Positions 20,402 through 34,413 of a stretch of DNA of 64,000 bases are shown here, piece after piece. The DNA comes from Arthrobacter saudimassiliensis (GTDB taxonomy: Bacteria > Actinomycetota > Actinomycetes > Actinomycetales > Micrococcaceae), in the NCBI GenBank assembly GCA_900016675.1, contig LN483071.1:124001-188000 (forward strand). Reading direction: 5' to 3'. The notes beneath the pieces were generated by a model. It did no database searches and was not told the DNA's origin. It saw only the letters and a program-made list of their open reading frames with translations. Each line of letters begins with the position of its first letter. The first letter of the stretch is position 1. The position numbers and the translations under genes were made by a program.

Positions 20402-20665
20402 TCAGTGGTCGGCGGCCGCCTGGATCTGGTTGATCCGCGCCAGGATGCCTGCCTTCAAGGTCTGGGGAGCGGCCTCGGTGCAGGAACGCTTCACCACCGA
20501 ACGGATCACGCACTCCAGGTCGTGCTCCCGGGCGCACTCGGTGCAGCCTTCGAGGTGTTCCTTGATCTCGACCAGGTCCTCATGGGACAGCGCCCCGTCG
20601 AGGTATTCGTACAGCCGCTCGATGCGGGCGTCGTCGCAATCGCCCAGTCTCTGGCAATCGCTCAT
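20402..20665 (-). CDS. rsrA: Zinc-binding redox-sensing anti-sigma factor, RsrA/RshA type
   Basis: An 87-residue ZAS-family anti-sigma factor with the HxxxCxxC motif 'HLEGCTEC' (His37, Cys41, Cys44) and an additional Cys10 in 'GDC' matching the Cys11 ligand of Streptomyces RsrA. Cys52 and Cys62 are also present. In the family, zinc-bound reduced protein holds SigR/SigH inactive; oxidation forms a disulfide involving the Cys10 and Cys44 equivalents, zinc is lost and the sigma factor is freed. The ATG overlaps the TGA of sigH (ATGA), ensuring matched synthesis. All the key ligands are seen; redox behaviour is inferred. Confidence 0.92.
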
Positions 20666-21357
20666 AGCGTCTTCCCCTGTTTCGTTGTCTGGGTTTTCCC
20701 GCCCTGCGGGCTGTCAGCCTTGCCGCGGATGCCGCGCTCCTGCGCGTACTCCGCCAGCAGCTCGCGCAGCATCCGCCGGCCGCGGTGCAGCCGGGACATG
20801 ACGGTCCCGATGGGCGTGTTCATGATTTCGGAGATCTCCTTGTACGCGAAGCCCTCCACATCGGAGAAATACACCGCCAGGCGGAAGTCCTCCGGAATGG
20901 ACTGCAGGGCGTTCTTCACGTCGGAGTCCGGCAGATGGTCAAGGGCCACCGCCTCAGCCGAGCGCAGGCCGGCAGGTGTGTGCTCCGCCGCCCGGGCCAG
21001 CTGCCAGTCCTCGACTCCGTCGGAGTGGGCCTGCTGCGGTTCCCGCTGCCGTTTCCGGTACAGATTGATGTAGGTGTTGGTGAGGATCCGGTAGAGCCAG
21101 GCCTTCAGGTTCGTTCCCGGCTTGTACTGGTGGAAGGCCGAGAACGCCTTGGTGTAGGCCTCCTGCACCAGGTCCTCTGCGTCGGAGGGGTTGCGTGCCA
21201 TGCGCATGGCGGCCGAGTACAGCTGGTCGACATACTGCATGGCGTCCCGTTCGAAGCGCAGCTTCCGTTCCGCCTCGGACTCCTCCGCCACGTCCAAGGG
21301 CGCCTCCACCTGGCTTTTGTCCACTTCCTGGCTGCCTTCCGGCACGTGAGTCTTCAT
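20662..21357 (-). CDS. sigH: ECF sigma factor, SigR/SigH type (thiol-oxidative stress)
   Basis: The 231-residue short form starts at 21357 ('[14 protein letters not shown]'). Region 2 contains '[20 protein letters not shown]' with the -10-reading helix '[17 protein letters not shown]'. Region 4 contains '[20 protein letters not shown]', which reads the -35. The pairing with an RsrA-type anti-sigma identifies it as SigR/SigH, controlling thioredoxin, mycothiol and proteolysis genes. An in-frame ATG at 21483 with a perfect GGAGGAA site would add 42 Ala/Pro/Arg-rich residues. A GGAAT-N18-GTT promoter lies just upstream of it (21535-21560). This matches the Streptomyces arrangement, where an autoregulated transcript makes a longer, less stable isoform. 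Both starts are probably used. Confidence 0.92.
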
Positions 21358-21365
21358 CACGTTCC

Positions 21366-21371
21366 AGTCTA
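21366..21371 (-). promoter_or_regulatory. Possible -10 for a short, near-leaderless sigH transcript
   Basis: TAGACT on the minus strand lies 8 bases before the ATG at 21357. A transcript starting here would be almost leaderless and encode only the short SigH form. No good -35 is visible, so this is tentative. Confidence 0.4.
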
Positions 21372-21534
21372 CGGGTCCGGACCGGCGGCTCCCGGGAGAG
21401 CGGCGGCCGGGCAGGTCCAGGCGGACGGCGGCGGCGGCGGCCGCAGGGCCGGCGGTCAAAGCGGTGGCGGCAGGCGGTGTCATCTTCCTCCATCTCGTAC
21501 CGGCGGGCCGCTGCGGCCCCGGACATTCCTGCAC

Positions 21535-21560
21535 AACACGGCAGGACCTCCGGGTATTCC
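21535..21560 (-). promoter_or_regulatory. SigR/SigH-type promoter for sigH (autoregulation)
   Basis: Read on the minus strand, GGAAT (21556-21560) is followed by exactly 18 bases and then GTT (21535-21537). This is the published consensus of SigR-family promoters. It lies about 52 bases before the ATG at 21483, so its transcript would carry the extended sigH frame and rsrA. It shows direct positive autoregulation as in other actinobacteria. Confidence 0.78.
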
Positions 21561-21691: not shown

Positions 21692-22270
21692 ATGTCGATA
21701 GTCCGTTTCGCCGCCCGCCCGCTGCTCGCCGCAGGGTTCGTTGCCGACGGCGCCCGGCGCCTGCGCAGCGTCGACGCCACCGCCGAACAGCTGCAGCCGC
21801 TGCTCGCCGCCGCCCAGGGTGCCGGCGGAGCCGACGACGCCCTCGCCGGCCGCAGCCGCACCGTTGCGCGCGCCGCCGCCGGAGCCCAGCTCGGGGCCGG
21901 CATCCTGCTGGGGCTGGGCCGCATGCCCCGCCTCGCCGCCACGGTGCTTGCCTCCACCTGGGCGCTGGACACCTGGCTGGACCACCGGGCCGCCCCGGCC
22001 GGGACCGATGAGGAGAAGGCCTCGCGCCGCTCCGCCCTGCTGCGCAACCTGTCGATGCTGGGCGCGGTGCTCCTCGCCGCCGTCGATACCTCCGGCCGGC
22101 CCGGCCTGGCCTGGCGGACCGGGAAGCTGGCCGACGACACCCGCCGCAGCCTGTCCTCCGCCACCCACAGCACCGGCAGGACGGCCCGCCGCGTGAACCG
22201 GACGGCCCGCCGCCGGGTCAAGGCCGCGGACAAGGCCATCCGTTCCACCGTGAGCGGGCTCGCTGCCTGA
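21692..22270 (+). CDS. DoxX family membrane protein
   Basis: A 192-residue protein with the actinobacterial DoxX start '[20 protein letters not shown]' and about four hydrophobic segments. It ends in a strongly basic tail from about residue 155 (many Arg and Lys within '[17 protein letters not shown]'), likely cytoplasmic. DoxX proteins have been tied to thiosulfate oxidation and, in mycobacteria, to a membrane oxidoreductase complex; the role here is unknown. The ATG follows an AAGGAGG site. It is divergent from sigH, and one base separates its stop from aroA, so it is probably the first gene of a DoxX-aroA-rsgA unit. Confidence 0.8.
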
Positions 22271-22271
22271 C

Positions 22272-23609
22272 ATGGTCCGCTCCACCGCCCCGGCCGCCTG
22301 GCCCGCCCCCTTCACCGCCGGCTCCCCCGTCACCGGCACGCTCAGCGTTCCCGGGTCCAAGTCCCTGACCAACCGCTACCTGGTGCTGGCCGCACTCGCA
22401 GACGGTCCCTGCCGGCTGCGGGCGCCGCTGCACTCACGCGATTCGGCGCTGATGGTCCAGGCGCTGCGCGCCCTGGGCGCCGAGGTCCGGGAGACCGCCG
22501 GATCAGGAGCGTACGGTCCGGACCTGCTCGTCACGGCCGCCCCGGCCGGGTCCGGCGGCGGCGTCCCCGCCGCCGTGGACTGCGGGCTGGCCGGGACGGT
22601 GATGCGGTTCGTGCCCGTGGTGGCGGCCCTGCGCTCCGGGCAGACCCGGTTCGACGGCGATCCGCACGCCCGCCTCCGTCCGATGGGCACCACGGTTCAG
22701 GCCCTGCGCGGCCTCGGCGTCCGGGTCGACGACGAGGGCCGGGCGGCCCTGCCGTTCACGGTGCACGGCACCGGCGCCGTCGAAGGCGGCAGGCTGGAGA
22801 TCGACGCCGGCGCCTCCTCGCAGTTCGTCTCCGCCCTGCTGCTGGCCGCCCCCCGTTTCCGCAGCGGCCTGCACCTGGTGCACCGCGGCTCCGGGGTGCC
22901 CAGCATGGAGCACATCGGCATGACGGTCGAGGTGCTGCGCTCGGTGGGCGTGCAGGTGGATGACTCGGTGCCCAACGAATGGCGGGTCTCCCCCGGCCCG
23001 GTGCGGGCCTTCGACGTCGCCGTCGAGCCGGATCTGTCCAACGCCGGCCCGTTCCTCGCCGCGGCGGTGGTCACCGGCGGCACCGTCGCAGTCACGGGAT
23101 GGCCGCAGGGCTCCACCCAGATCGGTGACCGCTGGCGGCAGATCCTGCCGATGTTCGGTGCCGAAGCGGTCTGGGCCGACGGAACCCTCACCGTCTCCGG
23201 CACCGGCGAACTCCACGGAGTGGACCTGGCCGACACCGGCGAACTGGCCCCCACCGTCGCGGCCCTGTGCGCGCTGGCCGATTCGCCGTCGCGGCTGACC
23301 GGCATCGCGCATCTGCGCGGCCACGAGACGGACCGCCTCGCCGCCCTGACCGCCGAGATCAACGGCCTGGGCGGTGACGTGGAGGAAACCGCCGACGGGC
23401 TGCTGATCCGCCCCGCGCCGCTGCACGGCGGCATATTCCACACCTACGCGGACCACCGGATGGCCACGGCGGGGGCGATCCTCGGCCTTGCCGTTCCCGG
23501 CGTGCAGGTGGAGGACATCGCGACCACCGCCAAGACCCTGCCCGAGTTCGCTTCGCTCTGGGAGTCCCTGGTCTCCGGCGGGACCGCCGACGGCGGGCAG
23601 GTGCGCTGA
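22272..23609 (+). CDS. aroA: 3-phosphoshikimate 1-carboxyvinyltransferase (EPSP synthase)
   Basis: A 445-residue enzyme of the shikimate pathway that joins shikimate-3-phosphate and phosphoenolpyruvate. Motifs in order: '[19 protein letters not shown]' (phosphate-binding Lys and Ser), '[16 protein letters not shown]', '[18 protein letters not shown]', '[16 protein letters not shown]', '[14 protein letters not shown]', '[11 protein letters not shown]' and '[16 protein letters not shown]'. All the expected substrate-binding Arg, Asp and His residues appear intact. It starts one base after the DoxX stop and overlaps rsgA by one base (TGATG), so the three genes are co-transcribed. AroA next to RsgA and near SigH is a familiar actinobacterial arrangement. 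Confidence 0.95.
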
Positions 23610-25585: not shown

Positions 25586-26377
25586 GTGGCCCTCACAGGT
25601 CCCCGGCTCAGCGATGAACGGCGCCGCCAGCTGGCCGAGGGGTACGGCGCCGGCGGCAGCCACTATGAGCGGGTTCGGCCGGGTTACCCGGCCGACGCGG
25701 TGGACTGGCTGTTCACCGGCTGCCAGGTGCACGGCTCCGCCGTGCGGGCCGTGGCCGACGTCGGGGCCGGAACAGGCAAGTACACCCGGGTGCTGGCCGA
25801 GGCCGGCTTCCGCGTCACGGCGGTTGATCCCAGCGCCGACATGCTGGAACAGCTGCGGCACGCGCTGCCCCAGGTTCCCGTCCATCAGGGCACCGCGGAG
25901 CACACCGGCCTTCCCGCCGGCAGCTTCGACGCCGTGACGGTCGCGCAGGCCTGGCACTGGTGCGATCCGCTGGCTGCCAGCACCGAGTTCGCACGGATCC
26001 TGCGCCCGGACGGGCTCCTGGGCCTGGTCTGGAACCAGCTGGACGTCTCCGTGCCGTGGGTGCACCGGTTTGCCCGCATCAGCCACGCCGGGGATGTCCT
26101 GCGCCCCGGTTTCCGGCCGCAGGTCGGCCCCGAGTTCGTCCTCCAGGCGCACTCCACGGTGTCCTGGTCCCAGCCGCTGCGGGCCGACGAGCTGCCGGCG
26201 CTCGCCCAGTCCCGCTCCTGGTACCGGACGGCCGGCGAAAGCGGCCGCCGGCGGATGCACGCCAACCTGGACTGGTACCTGTACGAGCATCTGGGCCACC
26301 GTCCCGACACCGTGCTGGAGCTGCCCTACCTCACCCTGTCCTGGCGGGCACGCCGGCAGTCCGGGGCCGTGACGTGA
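25586..26377 (+). CDS. Class I SAM-dependent methyltransferase
   Basis: A 263-residue protein with the Rossmann SAM site 'VADVGAGTGKYTRVLAE' (motif I, about 55-71), the acidic residue in 'VTAVDPSADML', and 'AVTVAQAWHWCDP' (motif IV region). It resembles the trans-aconitate-methyltransferase-like group of small-molecule methyltransferases; the substrate is unknown. The GTG start at 25586 lies 2 bases after the hisN stop with no clear ribosome-binding site, so translation is probably coupled. The end overlaps the start of crcB1 (GTGA). Confidence 0.82.
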   Translation: MALTGPRLSDERRRQLAEGYGAGGSHYERVRPGYPADAVDWLFTGCQVHGSAVRAVADVGAGTGKYTRVLAEAGFRVTAVDPSADMLEQLRHALPQVPVHQGTAEHTGLPAGSFDAVTVAQAWHWCDPLAASTEFARILRPDGLLGLVWNQLDVSVPWVHRFARISHAGDVLRPGFRPQVGPEFVLQAHSTVSWSQPLRADELPALAQSRSWYRTAGESGRRRMHANLDWYLYEHLGHRPDTVLELPYLTLSWRARRQSGAVT

Positions 26378-26808
26378 CGGCCGGACCGCAGCGGGCGGGC
26401 CTGCCGGCACCCCGGGTCTGGGCCGCCGTCGCCGTCGGCGGGGCGGTGGGCTCCGAAGCCCGCTACCTGCTCGGCCTGGCCTTTCCGCAGCCCGCCGCCG
26501 GTGTCGACCTGGTGGTCCTCTGGGTGAACGTCGCCGCTTCCCTGGCCCTGGGCTGGCTCACCGGCCGGTGGAGCGCCCGCCCGGCCCCGGATTGGGTGCG
26601 GGCGGGACTGGGTCCCGGACTGCTGGGCGGATTCAGTACCTTCTCGGCGCTGGCCCTGAGCCTTGAACGGCTGACCGCCGCCGGCAGCGCAGCCGAAGCG
26701 GCCGGCTATCTGGCCGCCTCCCTGCTGCTCGGCCTCGGCGCCGCTGCCCTGGGCCTGTTCCTGGGCCTGCGGCGGGGCCGGAACCGCGGGGCAGGGGCCG
26801 GGGCATGA
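26374..26808 (+). CDS. crcB: Fluoride channel CrcB/Fluc, first subunit
   Basis: A 144-residue, four-helix membrane protein with the Fluc features 'GGAVGSEARYLLGL', the conserved Asn in 'LWVNVAASLALGWL' and the pore Phe box 'GLLGGFSTFSAL'. Actinobacteria often carry two adjacent crcB genes whose products form one antiparallel dual-topology channel exporting fluoride. GTG at 26374 overlaps the methyltransferase TGA; the stop overlaps the next crcB (ATGA). No fluoride riboswitch can lie between these genes, since they overlap, and I saw none ahead of hisN. Confidence 0.9.
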   Translation: MTAGPQRAGLPAPRVWAAVAVGGAVGSEARYLLGLAFPQPAAGVDLVVLWVNVAASLALGWLTGRWSARPAPDWVRAGLGPGLLGGFSTFSALALSLERLTAAGSAAEAAGYLAASLLLGLGAAALGLFLGLRRGRNRGAGAGA

Positions 26809-27245
26809 GCGTCCTTGCGGCCGTGGCGGTGGCGGCGGGCGGCATGCTCGGCGCGCTGGCCCGTTTCGGGCTCGACACGCTCCTGCTGCGCCGCGCCGGA
26901 ACCCGCCCCTGGGCGGCCCTGCCGGTGGGCACGCTGCTCGTCAACGTGGCCGGCAGCGCCCTGATCGGCGCCGCCTTGCAGCAGGGCATAGGCGGCGCCG
27001 ATCAGGGCGCTGCCTATGCCCTGCTGCAGGGCGGCGGGCTGAGCGCCCCGGCCTACGCCGCCGTCACCGCAGGGCTGGCCGGTGGCCTGACGACGTTCAG
27101 TTCGTGGGCAGTTGCCTCGGTGCTGCTCTGGAACGGGGACAGGCGCCTGGCCGCGGTGCTGAACCTGGCCCTGAACGTGGTCCTCGGCGCGGCCGCATGC
27201 GCCGGCGGCTGGCTCGTCGGCGACTGGCTGTCCACCGCCCGGTAA
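26805..27245 (+). CDS. crcB: Fluoride channel CrcB/Fluc, second subunit
   Basis: A 146-residue paralogue of the preceding gene with 'GGMLGALARFGLDTLLL', the conserved Asn in 'LLVNVAGSALIGAAL' and the Phe box 'AGLAGGLTTFSSWAV'. It would form a heteromeric fluoride exporter with the first CrcB. The segment between helices 2 and 3 (about residues 53-80) is unusually long and encoded by two interleaved perfect inverted repeats at 26961-27028, which produce the similar stretches 'ALQQGIGGADQGAAY' and 'ALLQGGG'. This suggests a recent local rearrangement that kept the frame. It is the last gene of the hisN-led operon. Confidence 0.9.
   Translation: MSVLAAVAVAAGGMLGALARFGLDTLLLRRAGTRPWAALPVGTLLVNVAGSALIGAALQQGIGGADQGAAYALLQGGGLSAPAYAAVTAGLAGGLTTFSSWAVASVLLWNGDRRLAAVLNLALNVVLGAAACAGGWLVGDWLSTAR
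26961..27028. repeat. Interleaved inverted repeats (A-B-A'-B') inside crcB2
   Basis: A 15-base arm (26961-26975) is exactly complementary to 26991-27005. A 17-base arm (26977-26993) is exactly complementary to 27012-27028. The second arms alternate, so the pairings cross, as in an H-type pseudoknot, and they share three bases (26991-26993). All of it is in coding sequence. Confidence 0.85.
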
Positions 27246-27321
27246 CAGCGCCCGGGCCTCCCGCCGCAGGACCTGCGCCCCTAGACTGGTCCGACCGCTG
27301 ATGCCTTCCCCCGGAGGACCC

Positions 27322-28401
27322 GTGCGCACTTTCGGCATAGAAGAGGAGTTCCTCCTCATCGATCCGGCCACCGGGCTGCCCGGAAAGAAGGCCGCGGAAG
27401 TGATTGCCCGCGCGGCGCCCGGCGCCTCCGGCCAGCCGGAGCTGCTGACCTGCCAGGTGGAGCACGCCACGGGTATCTGCACCACCGTGGAAGAGGCCGC
27501 CGCCGACCTGCTGGAGTTCCGTGTCCGGATCGCTGCCGCGGCGGCCGAGGCCGGCCAGGCGGTGGCGGTCACCGGAGCGGCGCCGCGTATCTCCGGCTCC
27601 CCTGCGGATGTGACCGATGTGCCCCGCTACCGGCTCATGGGCGCGATGACCGGGGCAGTGGGCATGGAGCAGTACGTGAACGGCACGCATGTGCACGTCG
27701 CCGTCGCCGATCCCGAGGAGGGCGTGCGGGTGCTGAACGGGCTGAGGCCCTGGCTGGGCACCCTTGGCGCGCTGGCGGCCAACTCGCCGTTCTGGCGCGG
27801 CCGGGACAGCCGGTTCTCGAGCTGGCGGCTGGTGCACTACCGGCGCTGGTCCGTGCAGGGCTGCCCGCCGCAGTTCGCCGACGCGGCCGACTACTCACGC
27901 CGCCTGGCCGCCCTGCTGGCCACCGACGTCGTCCTCGACGCCGGCCATGTCGGCTGGGCGGCACGGCTCTCCGGGCACCTGCCCACGGTGGAGGTCCGGG
28001 TGGCGGACGCCCAGCTCGAGGCCGCGGATTCGGTGCTGCTGGCCGCCCTCATCCGCGCGCTCGTGTCCACCCTGGCCGGGCAGCCGCCGGAGGACGGGCC
28101 GGCGGATCCTGAACTGCTCGACGTCGGGCTGTGGCAGGCGGCCCGGTACGGGCTGGACGGGAATCTGCTGGGCCACGGAACGCCCCACGCCGGCCTGCGC
28201 AGCGCCCGCGAGCAGCTGCAGGATCTGATGATGTTTGTCTCCCCCGAACTGGAGGCCAGCGGCGACCTCCCCTACGTGCGGAACGGCCTGGCCCGGCTGC
28301 TGGCCCATGGGACGGGAGCCCGCCGCCAGCGCCGGGCCGCGGCTGACGGCGGCGCCCGCGGCGTGGCCGGCCTGTTTGCCGCCGCCCTCACGGCACGGTG
28401 A
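27322..28401 (+). CDS. GCS2/YbdK-type carboxylate-amine ligase, copy 1
   Basis: A 359-residue protein of the glutamate-cysteine ligase type 2 family, with the N-terminal signature 'FGIEEEFLLIDP', then 'YVNGTHVHVAVAD', 'ANSPFWRGRDSRFSSWRLVH' and 'EVRVADAQLEAADSVLLAAL'. These enzymes join glutamate to an amine such as cysteine using ATP; YbdK proteins are weak gamma-glutamylcysteine synthetases and their real substrate is unsettled. GTG at 27322 is preferred: it has a GGAGG site, matches the copy 2 start, and fits a -10 (TAGACT) at 27282-27287. An ATG at 27301 would lack a ribosome-binding site. It is followed by a paralogue on the same strand. Confidence 0.85.
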   Translation: MRTFGIEEEFLLIDPATGLPGKKAAEVIARAAPGASGQPELLTCQVEHATGICTTVEEAAADLLEFRVRIAAAAAEAGQAVAVTGAAPRISGSPADVTDVPRYRLMGAMTGAVGMEQYVNGTHVHVAVADPEEGVRVLNGLRPWLGTLGALAANSPFWRGRDSRFSSWRLVHYRRWSVQGCPPQFADAADYSRRLAALLATDVVLDAGHVGWAARLSGHLPTVEVRVADAQLEAADSVLLAALIRALVSTLAGQPPEDGPADPELLDVGLWQAARYGLDGNLLGHGTPHAGLRSAREQLQDLMMFVSPELEASGDLPYVRNGLARLLAHGTGARRQRRAAADGGARGVAGLFAAALTAR

Positions 28402-28531
28402 GCCGAACGGACCGGCGGCCTGCGCCGCCTCCGGTGTCCGGGCACCGTTTGGCGCAGCGGCCGGTGAGGTGTTTAGTCTCGTAGAGATAACGATGAGCCG
28501 CCGGGCACGCCTGGCTGTCCTAAGGAGTTCC

Positions 28532-29632
28532 ATGGCCACGCTGGGTATCGAAGAGGAATACCTGCTGCTCGATCCGCGCACCGGGCTGCCCTCCCACAAG
28601 GCCGACGAGGTGGCCGGCTACCTCCACGACTCGCCACGGGTGACCGAGGGCGAAGTGCAGCGTGAACTGCTCAGCTGCCAGATCGAGACCGCCACCCCGG
28701 TCTGCTCCACCCTCACCGAAGCCGAGGAATACCTGCTCAACTTCCGGACGCAGCTGGCCGCCGCGGCGGAAAAGGCCTCCGTCGTCGCGGCGGGGACGGC
28801 CACCGCTCCCCGGGTCGAGGAGCACTATCCCGAACTGACCGACAAGGAACGCTACCGCGAGCTGCAGCAGAGCGCGCCGGGCATCGTCGGGGACCAGTTC
28901 GTCAACGGACTGCACGTGCACGTCTCCATCCCGGACAAGGAGACCGGCGTCCAGGCCCTGAACCGGATCCGCGAATGGCTGCCCCTGGTGGTGGCGCTCA
29001 GCTGCAACTCCCCGTTCTGGCTCGGCCGCGACAGCGGATTCGGCAGCTGGCGGGTCGTGCACTACCGCCGCTGGCCGGTCCAGGGCTGCCCGCCGGTGTT
29101 CCGCGACGCCGCCGACTATGAGCGGCGCATCCAGCGCCTGGTGGACACGGCCGCCATCATCGACCGCGGCGTGCTGACCTGGATGGCCCGCCTCTCCGAC
29201 GCGTACCCCACCATCGAGGTGCGGGCCGGCGACGGGCAGCTGCAGGCCCGGGATTCGGTGCTGCTGGGCGGGCTCATCCGCGGGCTGGTCAGCACCGCCG
29301 TCGAGCAGGCCCGGCGCGGAGCCGGCTATGCCGTTCCGGATGAAGAGCTGCTTGATGCCGCAATGTGGCAGGCCGCCCGCGAGGGGCTCACCTCCAACCT
29401 GGTGGATCCCGTCAGCGCGCGGCTGGTGCCGGCCTGGGACCGGGTCGAGGCCCTGCTGGAGTTCATCGGCCCGGCACTGGAGGCCGAGGGCGACACCGAG
29501 TGGGTCCGGGCCGGGCTTCGCCAGCTGCGGGCCCAGGGCACCGGCTCCGAACGCCAGCGCCGTGCCATGGCCGACGGCGGCACGGCCGCCCTGCTCGAGC
29601 TCTACCGTTCCTCGGTGACCTCCGAGGACTAG
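28532..29632 (+). CDS. GCS2/YbdK-type carboxylate-amine ligase, copy 2
   Basis: A 366-residue paralogue of the previous gene, with the same motifs in the same order: 'LGIEEEYLLLDPRTGLP', 'FVNGLHVHVSIPD', 'NSPFWLGRDSGFGSWRVVH' and 'EVRAGDGQLQARDSVLLGGL'. The two share long identical blocks, so they arose by tandem duplication, but they have diverged in the middle. The ATG follows an AAGGAG site. The 130-base gap between the copies contains AT-richer text (about 28470-28495) that may hold a separate promoter. It ends 2 bases from the end of the convergent GH13 gene. Confidence 0.87.
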   Translation: MATLGIEEEYLLLDPRTGLPSHKADEVAGYLHDSPRVTEGEVQRELLSCQIETATPVCSTLTEAEEYLLNFRTQLAAAAEKASVVAAGTATAPRVEEHYPELTDKERYRELQQSAPGIVGDQFVNGLHVHVSIPDKETGVQALNRIREWLPLVVALSCNSPFWLGRDSGFGSWRVVHYRRWPVQGCPPVFRDAADYERRIQRLVDTAAIIDRGVLTWMARLSDAYPTIEVRAGDGQLQARDSVLLGGLIRGLVSTAVEQARRGAGYAVPDEELLDAAMWQAAREGLTSNLVDPVSARLVPAWDRVEALLEFIGPALEAEGDTEWVRAGLRQLRAQGTGSERQRRAMADGGTAALLELYRSSVTSED

Positions 29633-32775: not shown

Positions 32776-33091
32776 GGGGGTGGGGGGTCTCCTACGGTGG
32801 TGCGGTTCTTCCCGCCGCCGGATCCCGGGCACGTCTCAGGAGCCGTCCCCCGCCACGGGGGCGGTCGGAAACGGAGCAGCTGAACAGTGGTGGGTGCGGT
32901 GGAAAGGGGCAGCAGCAGCGGGCCGGATGGCTCCCGTCGAAGCCCGGCGGGTCCGCGGCTGGCCGGCTACCAGCTTACCAAGCCGAGGGCTGCTTCCCGT
33001 CCGCCCGCCCCCGCAGGCAGCGGCAGGGACACCCCGCGAGAGAAATATCACGGCCTCCGCGGGGACCGCCGCCCTGAACCCGGGCACACAA
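32776..33091. other. Intergenic region before the ssrA terminator
   Basis: About 315 bases without a convincing gene on either strand; short frames are low-complexity and unmatched. It contains the promoter region of the UDG-like gene on the minus strand, but I see no clear -10/-35 pair. It ends at the terminator of ssrA. Confidence 0.5.
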
Positions 33092-33118
33092 AAAAGGCCC
33101 TGGAAATCCAGGGCCTTT
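33092..33118 (-). terminator. Intrinsic terminator of ssrA
   Basis: On the minus strand an 11-base perfect stem closing on a 4-base loop is followed by a run of six T. This is the best Rho-independent terminator in the window, and begins 5 bases after the mature tmRNA 3' end. Confidence 0.92.
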
Positions 33119-33122
33119 CTCG

Positions 33123-33490
33123 TGGAGATGGGGGGAATCGAACCCCCGTCCGATGTCGTGTTGTCAGGGCTTCTCCGGGCGCAGTCCGCGTCGGATTTTC
33201 TTGGCCCCAGCCATCTTCGCGAACGAGTGGCTGATCCGGGCCCAGCCGTCTAAGAGTCCCGGACACCCCGACGGCGAAGGTGTCCAGCAGTGGCTCTCTA
33301 AATGACGCCAGGATCCGGGGCGAGAGCATCCCCGGGCTGACGGACTATGCCCGCTGCTTAGGCAGCGAGAGCGAAGTCAGTGCGCTTGGATTCGGCACTT
33401 ATTGGTTTGCAGAGAGCGTTTACGAGATAACTCTGCATCCTCGGCCCGCTTCCCCTGTCGCGACAAACATCGTCGAAACCGATCATCCCC
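33123..33490 (-). ncRNA. ssrA: tmRNA (transfer-messenger RNA)
   Basis: This 368-base RNA rescues stalled ribosomes with SmpB. The 5' end GGGGATGATCGGTTTCGAC and the 3' end with the T-loop GGTTCGATTCC and CATCTCCA form the tRNA-like acceptor (7 pairs, one G-U). CCA is not encoded. The tag frame at 33358-33396 reads AESKRTDFALAA then TAA, using GCC as the resume codon, as in other Micrococcaceae. The gene for SmpB lies upstream on the same strand with one small membrane-protein gene between. A SigR-type promoter motif lies about 65-90 bases upstream of the mature 5' end. Confidence 0.95.
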
Positions 33491-33555
33491 GTATTTTGTT
33501 GCCAACTGCGGCCGGTTTCCCGGCTGCGCCGCGCCGAAGCGCGGACACCCAGTAT

Positions 33556-33581
33556 AACCCACGGCCGCCGCGGGGTATTCC
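33556..33581 (-). promoter_or_regulatory. SigR/SigH-type promoter for ssrA
   Basis: On the minus strand GGAAT (33577-33581) is followed by 18 bases and GTT (33556-33558). The GTT runs into TATACT (33551-33556), a near-ideal housekeeping -10, so two sigma factors may share this site. It lies in the gap after the membrane-protein gene, and transcripts from it would need a 5' leader of about 55 bases removed by RNase P to make tmRNA. Confidence 0.72.
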
Positions 33582-33586
33582 GGACG

Positions 33587-33946
33587 CTACAGCTGGACGC
33601 CGAAAACGACCACCGGTGCCTGCCAGGCCAGGACCATGATCCAGGCCACCACGGTCATCAGCACTCCCAGGATCGACAGCCCGGTGATCCCCGCCTGCCG
33701 GCGCCGGAACGCCCAGGCGAACTGGGCGATGTTCACGGCGGCCAGGAGCGGAGAGATCCAGACCACGAACTGAGCCAGCGCGATCCAGTACACCGCAAAG
33801 AACGGCACGACGACAAGGATCGCCACCGGGGCCAGGGCCAGCACGAGCAGCAGGTCGAGGACGATGACCGGCCAGCACCACAGCGGGATGCGGGTCTTGA
33901 CTTCGGTCTCTTCCTCTTCCTGGGGCTCCCAGAAGGTACCGCTCAT
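33587..33946 (-). CDS. Small membrane protein downstream of smpB
   Basis: A 119-residue protein of unknown function. An acidic N-terminus ('[13 protein letters not shown]') is followed by about three hydrophobic helices over residues 20-115 ('[20 protein letters not shown]', '[20 protein letters not shown]', '[20 protein letters not shown]'). The ATG at 33946 overlaps the smpB stop (ATGA); a longer frame runs back inside smpB and is rejected. Coupled translation with SmpB may be simple convenience. It lies between smpB and ssrA. Confidence 0.75.
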
Positions 33947-34413
33947 GCCAGGTTCTTCTCCCGCATCGCGCGCTGCGCCTCCCTGTTGTCCTGCCGCTCG
34001 CGCAGCGCCTGACGCTTGTCGTAGTCCCGCTTGCCGCGGGCGACGGCGATCTCGACCTTGGCGCGGCCGTCCACGAAGTACAGCTGCAGCGGCACGATCG
34101 TGAAGCCGGATTCCCGCGTCTTCTGGGCGATCTTGTCCAGCTGTTCCCGATGCAGCAGCAGCTTGCGGCGACGGCGTGCGGCATGGTTGGTCCAGCTGCC
34201 GTTGAGGTATTCGGGAATGTAGGCCGCTTCCAGCCACAGCTCGTCGTTGTAGAAGGTCCCGAAGCCGTCCACCAGGGACGCCCGGCCTTCCCGCAGCGAC
34301 TTGACCTCGGTGCCCATCAGCACCATCCCCGCCTCGTAGGTGTCAAGGATTTCGTAGTTGTGCCGGGCCTTGCGGTTGGTCGCAACGACCTTCCGGCCAC
34401 TTTCCTTGGGCAC
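33943..34413 (-). CDS. smpB: SsrA-binding protein SmpB
   Basis: A 156-residue tmRNA partner with the family's full text: '[20 protein letters not shown]', '[18 protein letters not shown]', '[20 protein letters not shown]'-type segment (here starting '[14 protein letters not shown]') and the basic tail '[20 protein letters not shown]', which becomes helical in the mRNA channel. It delivers tmRNA to stalled ribosomes. It sits 89 bases after the M23 peptidase gene on the same strand, part of the conserved ftsEX-smpB-ssrA order of actinobacteria. Confidence 0.96.

Follow-up and report, generated by a model that had tools for sequence, protein, structure and literature searches.

The larger finding reported here for Arthrobacter is that nearly the whole genus has two tmRNA genes, whose promoters are complementary and whose tags differ. 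The whole of the evidence is best explained, with a probability of about 80%, by a dual promoter of the smpB-linked gene ssrA1, putatively read both by the thiol-stress sigma factor SigR and by the housekeeping holoenzyme, by a duplication of the tmRNA gene, and by the division of the two promoter elements between ssrA1 and a second gene, ssrA2.

The ssrA1 promoter of the window

The window is the whole 64-kb stretch of Arthrobacter saudimassiliensis DNA that was analysed. The features around its tmRNA gene are the following.

33090..33117, minus strand: intrinsic terminator-like hairpin and T run 3' of ssrA1 (sequence, by eye)
33122..33490, minus strand: ssrA1, tmRNA gene with the tag AESKRTDFALAA (ARAGORN; Rfam RF00023, 170 bits)
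33551..33556, minus strand: overlapping housekeeping-type -10 hexamer TATACT, within TGGGTTATACT (sequence; TGnGnTAnnnT in 29/29 Arthrobacter ssrA1)
33556..33558, minus strand: SigR-type -10 element GTT of the ssrA1 promoter, 18 nt from GGAAT
33577..33581, minus strand: SigR-type -35 element GGAAT of the ssrA1 promoter (sequence; N18/19 from GTT in the ssrA upstreams of many relatives)
33587..33946, minus strand: small ORF between smpB and ssrA1, apparent membrane protein (product and start by eye)
33943..34413, minus strand: smpB, the tmRNA partner protein, sole copy found in the genome (TIGR00086, NF003843)

An earlier note on this DNA had placed a second GGAAT-N18-GTT motif 66-91 bases before the tmRNA, merged with TATACT. 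This description is confirmed. The motif occupies positions 33556-33581 of the minus strand, 66-91 nt 5' of the tmRNA end that ARAGORN and Rfam set at 33490, and the last T of GTT is the first base of TATACT (33551-33556); the minus-strand letters of the promoter are GGAATACCCCGCGGCGGCCGTGGGTTATACT. The box falls entirely inside the 96-nt gap between the stop of the small ORF (33587) and the tmRNA. A longer version of this ORF (33587-34237) gave no Pfam match.

The same note had judged a chance match in so short a gap unlikely. The 3.55-Mb genome contains 56 matches to GGAAT-N18-GTT, or about 8e-6 per position and strand, and at this rate the expected chance of a match in the 96-nt gap is about 6e-4. 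Two matches per 64 kb with a spacer of 18 or 19 nt, the other one here lying at 21535-21560 before the sigR gene, are ordinary, however, since 37 of 100 shuffles of the window also reach two. Conservation, rather than the single match, is the decisive evidence for the ssrA1 box.

A second tmRNA gene

The tmRNA is normally the product of a single gene. Single copies only were found in the genomes sampled from 29 of the 32 family genera, the exceptions being Arthrobacter, g8 (A. mobilis, with an AKPM copy) and g12. A search of the window's own genome revealed a second tmRNA above the Rfam cut-off (C3:3141-3512), carrying the tag AKPMRTDFALAA. The genus was represented by 29 Arthrobacter genomes, including A. 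citreus, A. gandavensis, A. koreensis, A. yangruifuii and A. zhaoxinii, in which 56 tmRNA copies were counted: 29 ssrA1, defined by smpB upstream, 26 ssrA2, defined as the AKPM copy whose 1500 nt of upstream sequence gave no smpB, and an unusual third copy in G021. A full-length ssrA2 is present in 26 of the 29 genomes, the window's own included, and each of the 29 yields a single smpB match. No report of this tmRNA pair was found in the open-licence literature searched.

Judged by its sequence, ssrA2 looks functional. ARAGORN calls all 26 copies, and the full-length fold, a tag ORF ending in LAA and the G3-U pair of the acceptor are found in 29/29 ssrA1 and 26/26 ssrA2, the ends of the latter keeping GGGG/CUCCA (with the G3-U pair) in every case. 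The tag AKPMRTDFALAA is identical in 26/26. Mean identity between ssrA2 copies is 88.5% in the tmRNA body and 36.7% in the 150 nt upstream, so the SigR-type box of this gene has been kept while its surroundings changed. Between ssrA1 and ssrA2 the divergence amounts to 11-23%.

In the upstream flank of 21 of the 26 ssrA2 genes a P-loop kinase was matched, which is PRK/uridine-kinase-like as far as a fragment shows and is divergent from ssrA2 in the query loci; the locus was thus mostly inherited in place. The window's genome has its ssrA2 between CBS and NUDIX genes, unlike the usual site. Among 395 family genomes the AKPM tag occurs in 27, namely 26 of the 29 Arthrobacter and A. mobilis E918, which belongs to another genus group. 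Three AKPM-pattern matches outside Micrococcaceae (L203, L204, L207) were discarded, no tmRNA being called there by ARAGORN. Genomes G005, G012 and G013 have neither ssrA2 nor box; a search of these three for a degraded ssrA2 found only the ssrA1 place, and they would have given up SigR control of tmRNA.

It could be proposed that ssrA2 has no regulatory role and is an additional tmRNA, mobile or decaying. In four mycobacteria, extra tmRNAs with different tags occur sporadically, and the available text of a study on them attributes their presence to phage or horizontal transfer (PMC9569102). The unusual place of ssrA2 in the window's genome would agree with this. Apart from a second tmRNA with a different tag, however, the two situations have little in common: ssrA2 is present in 26/29 genomes, with a related kinase gene upstream in most of them, an invariant tag and a conserved body; it is of the Micrococcaceae type, nested in a FastTree phylogeny among the tmRNAs of Arthrobacter and related genera, and it carries a stress-type promoter. 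Being neither sporadic nor foreign in sequence type, ssrA2 does not resemble a tmRNA acquired by phage or horizontal transfer, and a mobile or decaying copy devoid of regulatory role is quite improbable. A gene with a role of its own, inherited within the genus, is the preferred reading.

The third copy of G021 (L090, G021:C2:142454-142843) does fit such an origin: it is a divergent tmRNA with the tag ANATRSDYALAV, on a 400-kb contig, and is possibly plasmid- or phage-derived. Two further cases were noted. One genome of genus g12 contains two tmRNA genes that are nearly identical and separated by about 10 kb (L152 and L153, G039:C1:11430-11816 and 22247-22633), each downstream of a smpB match and with no SigR boxes. 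A Pseudarthrobacter MAG contig (L211) carries a smpB-linked tmRNA with the tag AKPMRTDFELAA and a fused SigR/housekeeping promoter; this tmRNA clusters with those of genera g10 and g20, and the AKPM tag may thus have had more than one origin or have been transferred repeatedly.

Conservation of the box before ssrA

The box was counted as GGAAT-N18/19-GTT on the gene strand in the 200 nt upstream of each tmRNA. Within the genus set it precedes 26/26 ssrA2 and 2/29 ssrA1. It was also found at 43 of 103 other Micrococcaceae loci, and at 10 of 27 loci both in other Micrococcales and in the rest of the class. These two outer sets were drawn from 35 and 32 genomes of other families with a match, the 27 highest scores being used in each case, and by this selection they lean to well-scoring tmRNAs. 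From the set of other family members, 13 of 114 genomes, mostly low in the score list, were left out before the upstreams were seen, and the counts leave aside L217 and L220, which repeat G066 and G037, the named loci L196-L212, which for the most part are genomes already included, and L090. With 150 nt upstream, at least one box was present in 16 of 31 other Micrococcaceae genera and in 15 of 34 other families; 15 of the 31 genera had none.

A scan of GGAAT-GTT spacings from 8 to 29 produced a peak at 18 and a minor peak at 19 in every set except ssrA1, and in the three non-Arthrobacter sets every other spacing was limited to 3 loci at most. When 1530 motifs with permuted letters and spacings of 10-26 were ranked, the SigR motif came first (50 of 157 upstreams), with runners-up that largely overlap the same site. 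Dinucleotide-shuffled upstreams (60 rounds, N18) gave a mean of at most 0.13 per set, and 2 same-strand matches were found in the 519,268 nt of remaining locus sequence. The 18-nt spacers themselves differ widely between groups.

These results bear directly on the possibility that the ssrA1 box is a chance match and that the housekeeping promoter alone serves this gene. In favor of chance are the ordinary number of matches in the window and the absence of a box from all but one of the 28 other Arthrobacter ssrA1 genes. Conservation at a fixed spacing across families and the first rank among the permuted motifs make it very improbable nonetheless, as does the related genus g5, where the single ssrA has the box with a fused -10 in 2/2 genomes. 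A genuine SigR-type element remains the preferred reading, and the box before ssrA is widespread in Actinomycetes and probably old, to judge from this comparison. The conserved link in another family that the earlier note had proposed is supported, and the box is conserved beyond Micrococcaceae, though many relatives are without the box: the search suggested for Micrococcaceae gave a divided answer, with 60 of 103 other loci lacking the exact box, as do 17 of 27 in each outer set.

The overlap of the two -10 elements is more restricted. In other Micrococcaceae, 32 of 44 box sites have a TAnnnT whose first base is the final T of GTT, so that the SigR and housekeeping elements share bases as in the window. 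Outside the family, TAnnnT is found at this fused position in 1 of 20 box sites with the GGAAT-GTT spacing unchanged, which argues that GTT, and not TAnnnT, is the partner of GGAAT. The fused form (GTTAnnnT) accordingly appears to be largely specific to Micrococcaceae. In ssrA2, the hexamer at the fused position is broken in 17/26 and TAnnnT is kept in 9/26; a description of this gene as controlled by SigR only is therefore not general, and some copies may keep basal expression.

Where the elements share bases, GGAAT could also be taken as merely an unusual -35 of the housekeeping promoter. This interpretation is hardly credible: it needs a spacer of about 19 nt, and leaves aside that the GGAAT-GTT distance is held outside the family almost without the fused hexamer, that ssrA2 keeps both SigR-type elements where the hexamer is broken, and that the -10 occurs without the box in 27 of 29 ssrA1. 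GGAAT and GTT are thus better regarded as the two halves of a SigR-type promoter.

SigR as the probable reader of the box

The window also encodes the candidate regulator.

20402..20665, minus strand: RsrA, anti-sigma factor of SigR (TIGR03988, 86.2 bits)
20662..21534, minus strand: SigR/SigH-type ECF sigma factor, true start uncertain (TIGR02947, 363.6 bits; match from residue 82)
21535..21560, minus strand: GGAAT-N18-GTT before the sigR gene, probable autoregulatory promoter (motif search; similar box in 15/20 genomes)

Both protein matches are above the curated cut-offs, and the order is box, sigma factor gene, RsrA. The SigR ORF (20662-21560) is open upstream to a GTG beside its own SigR box, with the family match starting only at residue 82, and an N-terminally extended isoform resembling the SigR' of Streptomyces is possible. 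Elsewhere in the window, two adjacent small membrane-protein ORFs (25960-27245) are presumably a CrcB/FluC fluoride-channel pair by their resemblance, and two consecutive ORFs with GIEEE(F/Y)LL motifs (27301-29632) are taken to be duplicated carboxylate-amine ligases of the YbdK type.

SigR was found in 120 of 120 family genomes searched, RsrA being tested in the window only. The presence or absence of SigR was consequently useless as a contrast. With SigR in all these genomes and the box often absent, the SigR link of ssrA has often been lost, or the box is degenerate. Of 20 representative genomes (two of Arthrobacter, the rest from 18 other genera), 15 have a GGAAT...GTT box upstream of sigR, 12 at N18 and 3 at N19, every other spacing from 10 to 26 occurring at most twice. 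In the window's genome, a box lies 71 nt before the start of a thioredoxin-reductase-like gene (L174), whose first 70 residues have thioredoxin reductase as best match, this fragment scoring below the curated cut-off; trxB is a known SigR target in the available text of a study that gives GGAAT-N18-19-GTT as the SigR consensus (PMC9205884).

The genome-wide list of boxes was rejected as a regulon test, L174 being the only recognisable SigR target among the 30 of 56 matches inspected, all on contig C1. No fewer than 25 of these 30 lie inside a same-strand ORF of at least 100 aa, so that the motif alone is a poor predictor, and 20 are more than 200 nt away from any candidate ORF start. A backward-pattern control (2 matches versus 56) was set aside: read backwards, the motif includes TAA, which makes the comparison unfair.

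The box might also be read, alone or together with SigR, by another ECF sigma factor whose consensus is similar. Up to 20 first-look candidates per family genome in the SigR-family search make the presence of other ECF factors probable, and the SigE and SigH promoters of Corynebacterium glutamicum overlap (GGAAC and GGAAT); in the same account, as far as its available text goes, SigE nevertheless recognised only GGAAC and GGAAT was the commonest SigH form (PMC10012870). Given also the agreement of the box with the SigR consensus and the like box before sigR in most of the genomes compared, a different reader appears unlikely. SigR is accordingly preferred. The sequences are best explained by SigR control of ssrA1 combined with an overlapping housekeeping promoter, as the earlier note had supposed, and this is well supported by the conservation of the box across relatives. 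The link stated there for streptomycetes is also on record: the available part of a study of Streptomyces coelicolor lists ssrA in the SigR regulon, citing earlier ChIP-chip work (PMC4921905). The S. coelicolor tmRNA is said, in the part available of another report, to come mostly from its own promoter (PMC2635970).

Probable division of the promoter elements between the two genes

The element TGnGnTAnnnT, taken here as the housekeeping element on its sequence, is found in 29/29 ssrA1, 2/26 ssrA2 and 53/103 other Micrococcaceae loci. The box shows the opposite distribution, being restricted among ssrA1 to the window (N18) and G001 (N19); the latter is probably due to chance, since its GGAAT lies in the final part of the upstream ORF and relatives have GGCCT there. 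In the 26 two-copy genomes, ssrA1 is without box in 24, ssrA2 is without TGnGnTAnnnT in 24, and both are true of 22. Fisher tests for each element gave about 1e-13, a value to be read with the relatedness of the species and the small number of real events in mind, and ssrA1 may have lost its box only once.

The absence of the motif in close relatives had been named in the earlier note as a refutation. The smpB-linked orthologue is indeed without box in 27 of 28 other Arthrobacter, but ssrA2, a paralogue which that note had missed, has it in 25 of 28. A test on the smpB-linked gene alone would have misled.

Both elements are combined before ssrA1 in the window's genome, whose ssrA2 has the box only, with a spacing of N19. 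A. mobilis, from another genus group, has the same arrangement, with box and housekeeping element at its AESK ssrA1 and the box only at the AKPM copy. The 103 other Micrococcaceae loci comprise 28 with both elements, 15 with the box only, 25 with the housekeeping element only and 35 with neither. A search for a housekeeping -35 (TTGnnn 16-18 before TAnnnT) found it in 0/29 ssrA1 and 0/26 ssrA2, versus 33/103 other loci. Hexamers matching TTGACA at 4 of 6 positions lie 16-18 before TGnGnTAnnnT in 10/29 ssrA1, where at least 4 matches are reached at about 8% of random places; part of the ssrA1 genes may have a weak -35.

A smpB tree built by a quick method places the window's genome outside the other 28, adjoining g5, with modest support (SH-aLRT 87). 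In the FastTree phylogeny of 160 tmRNAs, the ssrA2 copies group together (0.91) and the window's ssrA1 is their sister (0.85), deeper support being weak. This is read here as a duplication, after which one dual promoter would have been divided between two tmRNA genes.

Proposed mechanism and meaning

At the dual promoter, the housekeeping holoenzyme would use TATACT to ensure a basal supply of ssrA1 RNA, and under thiol stress oxidised RsrA would free SigR, which would use GGAAT-N18-GTT to produce more tmRNA. In Arthrobacter the tmRNA gene would then have been duplicated. The copy away from smpB, ssrA2, would have kept or gained the SigR box, mostly without a good housekeeping -10; in almost every other species ssrA1 would have been left with the housekeeping element after losing the box. 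Basal and stress-induced rescue would in this way be divided between two genes, with one SmpB common to both. The window's species would represent an intermediate state, with a dual ssrA1 and an ssrA2 of the SigR type (N19). The simplest story is an ancestral dual promoter, a duplication and the loss of the ssrA1 box after the window lineage had split; the use of the boxes by SigR, the induction of ssrA2 by thiol stress and this order of events are inferred from the motifs, copies, tags, distribution and spacing observed.

The closest known system is the SigR regulon of S. coelicolor, which, in the available text, shares the consensus, the target gene ssrA and the presence of SigR and RsrA (PMC4921905); here, in contrast, the box is fused with a housekeeping -10, and the target is split in two in Arthrobacter. 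The SigH regulons of C. glutamicum and Mycobacterium tuberculosis resemble it by the kind of sigma factor and by GGAAT-N18-19-GTT, and tmRNA is not among the targets found in the available text on them (PMC10012870). The comparison made here suggests that the SigR-ssrA link reported for Streptomyces is widespread in Actinomycetes.

A two-tier trans-translation can be put forward as a tentative and rather doubtful extension, in which the housekeeping tmRNA would add A(E/D)SKRTDFALAA and the SigR-induced tmRNA would add AKPMRTDFALAA; through its changed N-terminal half, this second tag would mark the proteins rescued during thiol stress or alter what becomes of them. Two tmRNA genes with distinct promoters and tags constitute a natural experiment, in that the tag would reveal the source gene. 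In duplication-degeneration-complementation, the cis elements of one ancestral promoter are divided between gene copies. The likeness lies in the two divided elements, with the differences that the gene concerned here encodes a tmRNA and that the tag has diverged as well. The ssrA1/ssrA2 pair looks like a clean example, for a noncoding RNA, of two copies sharing out the promoter of their ancestor.
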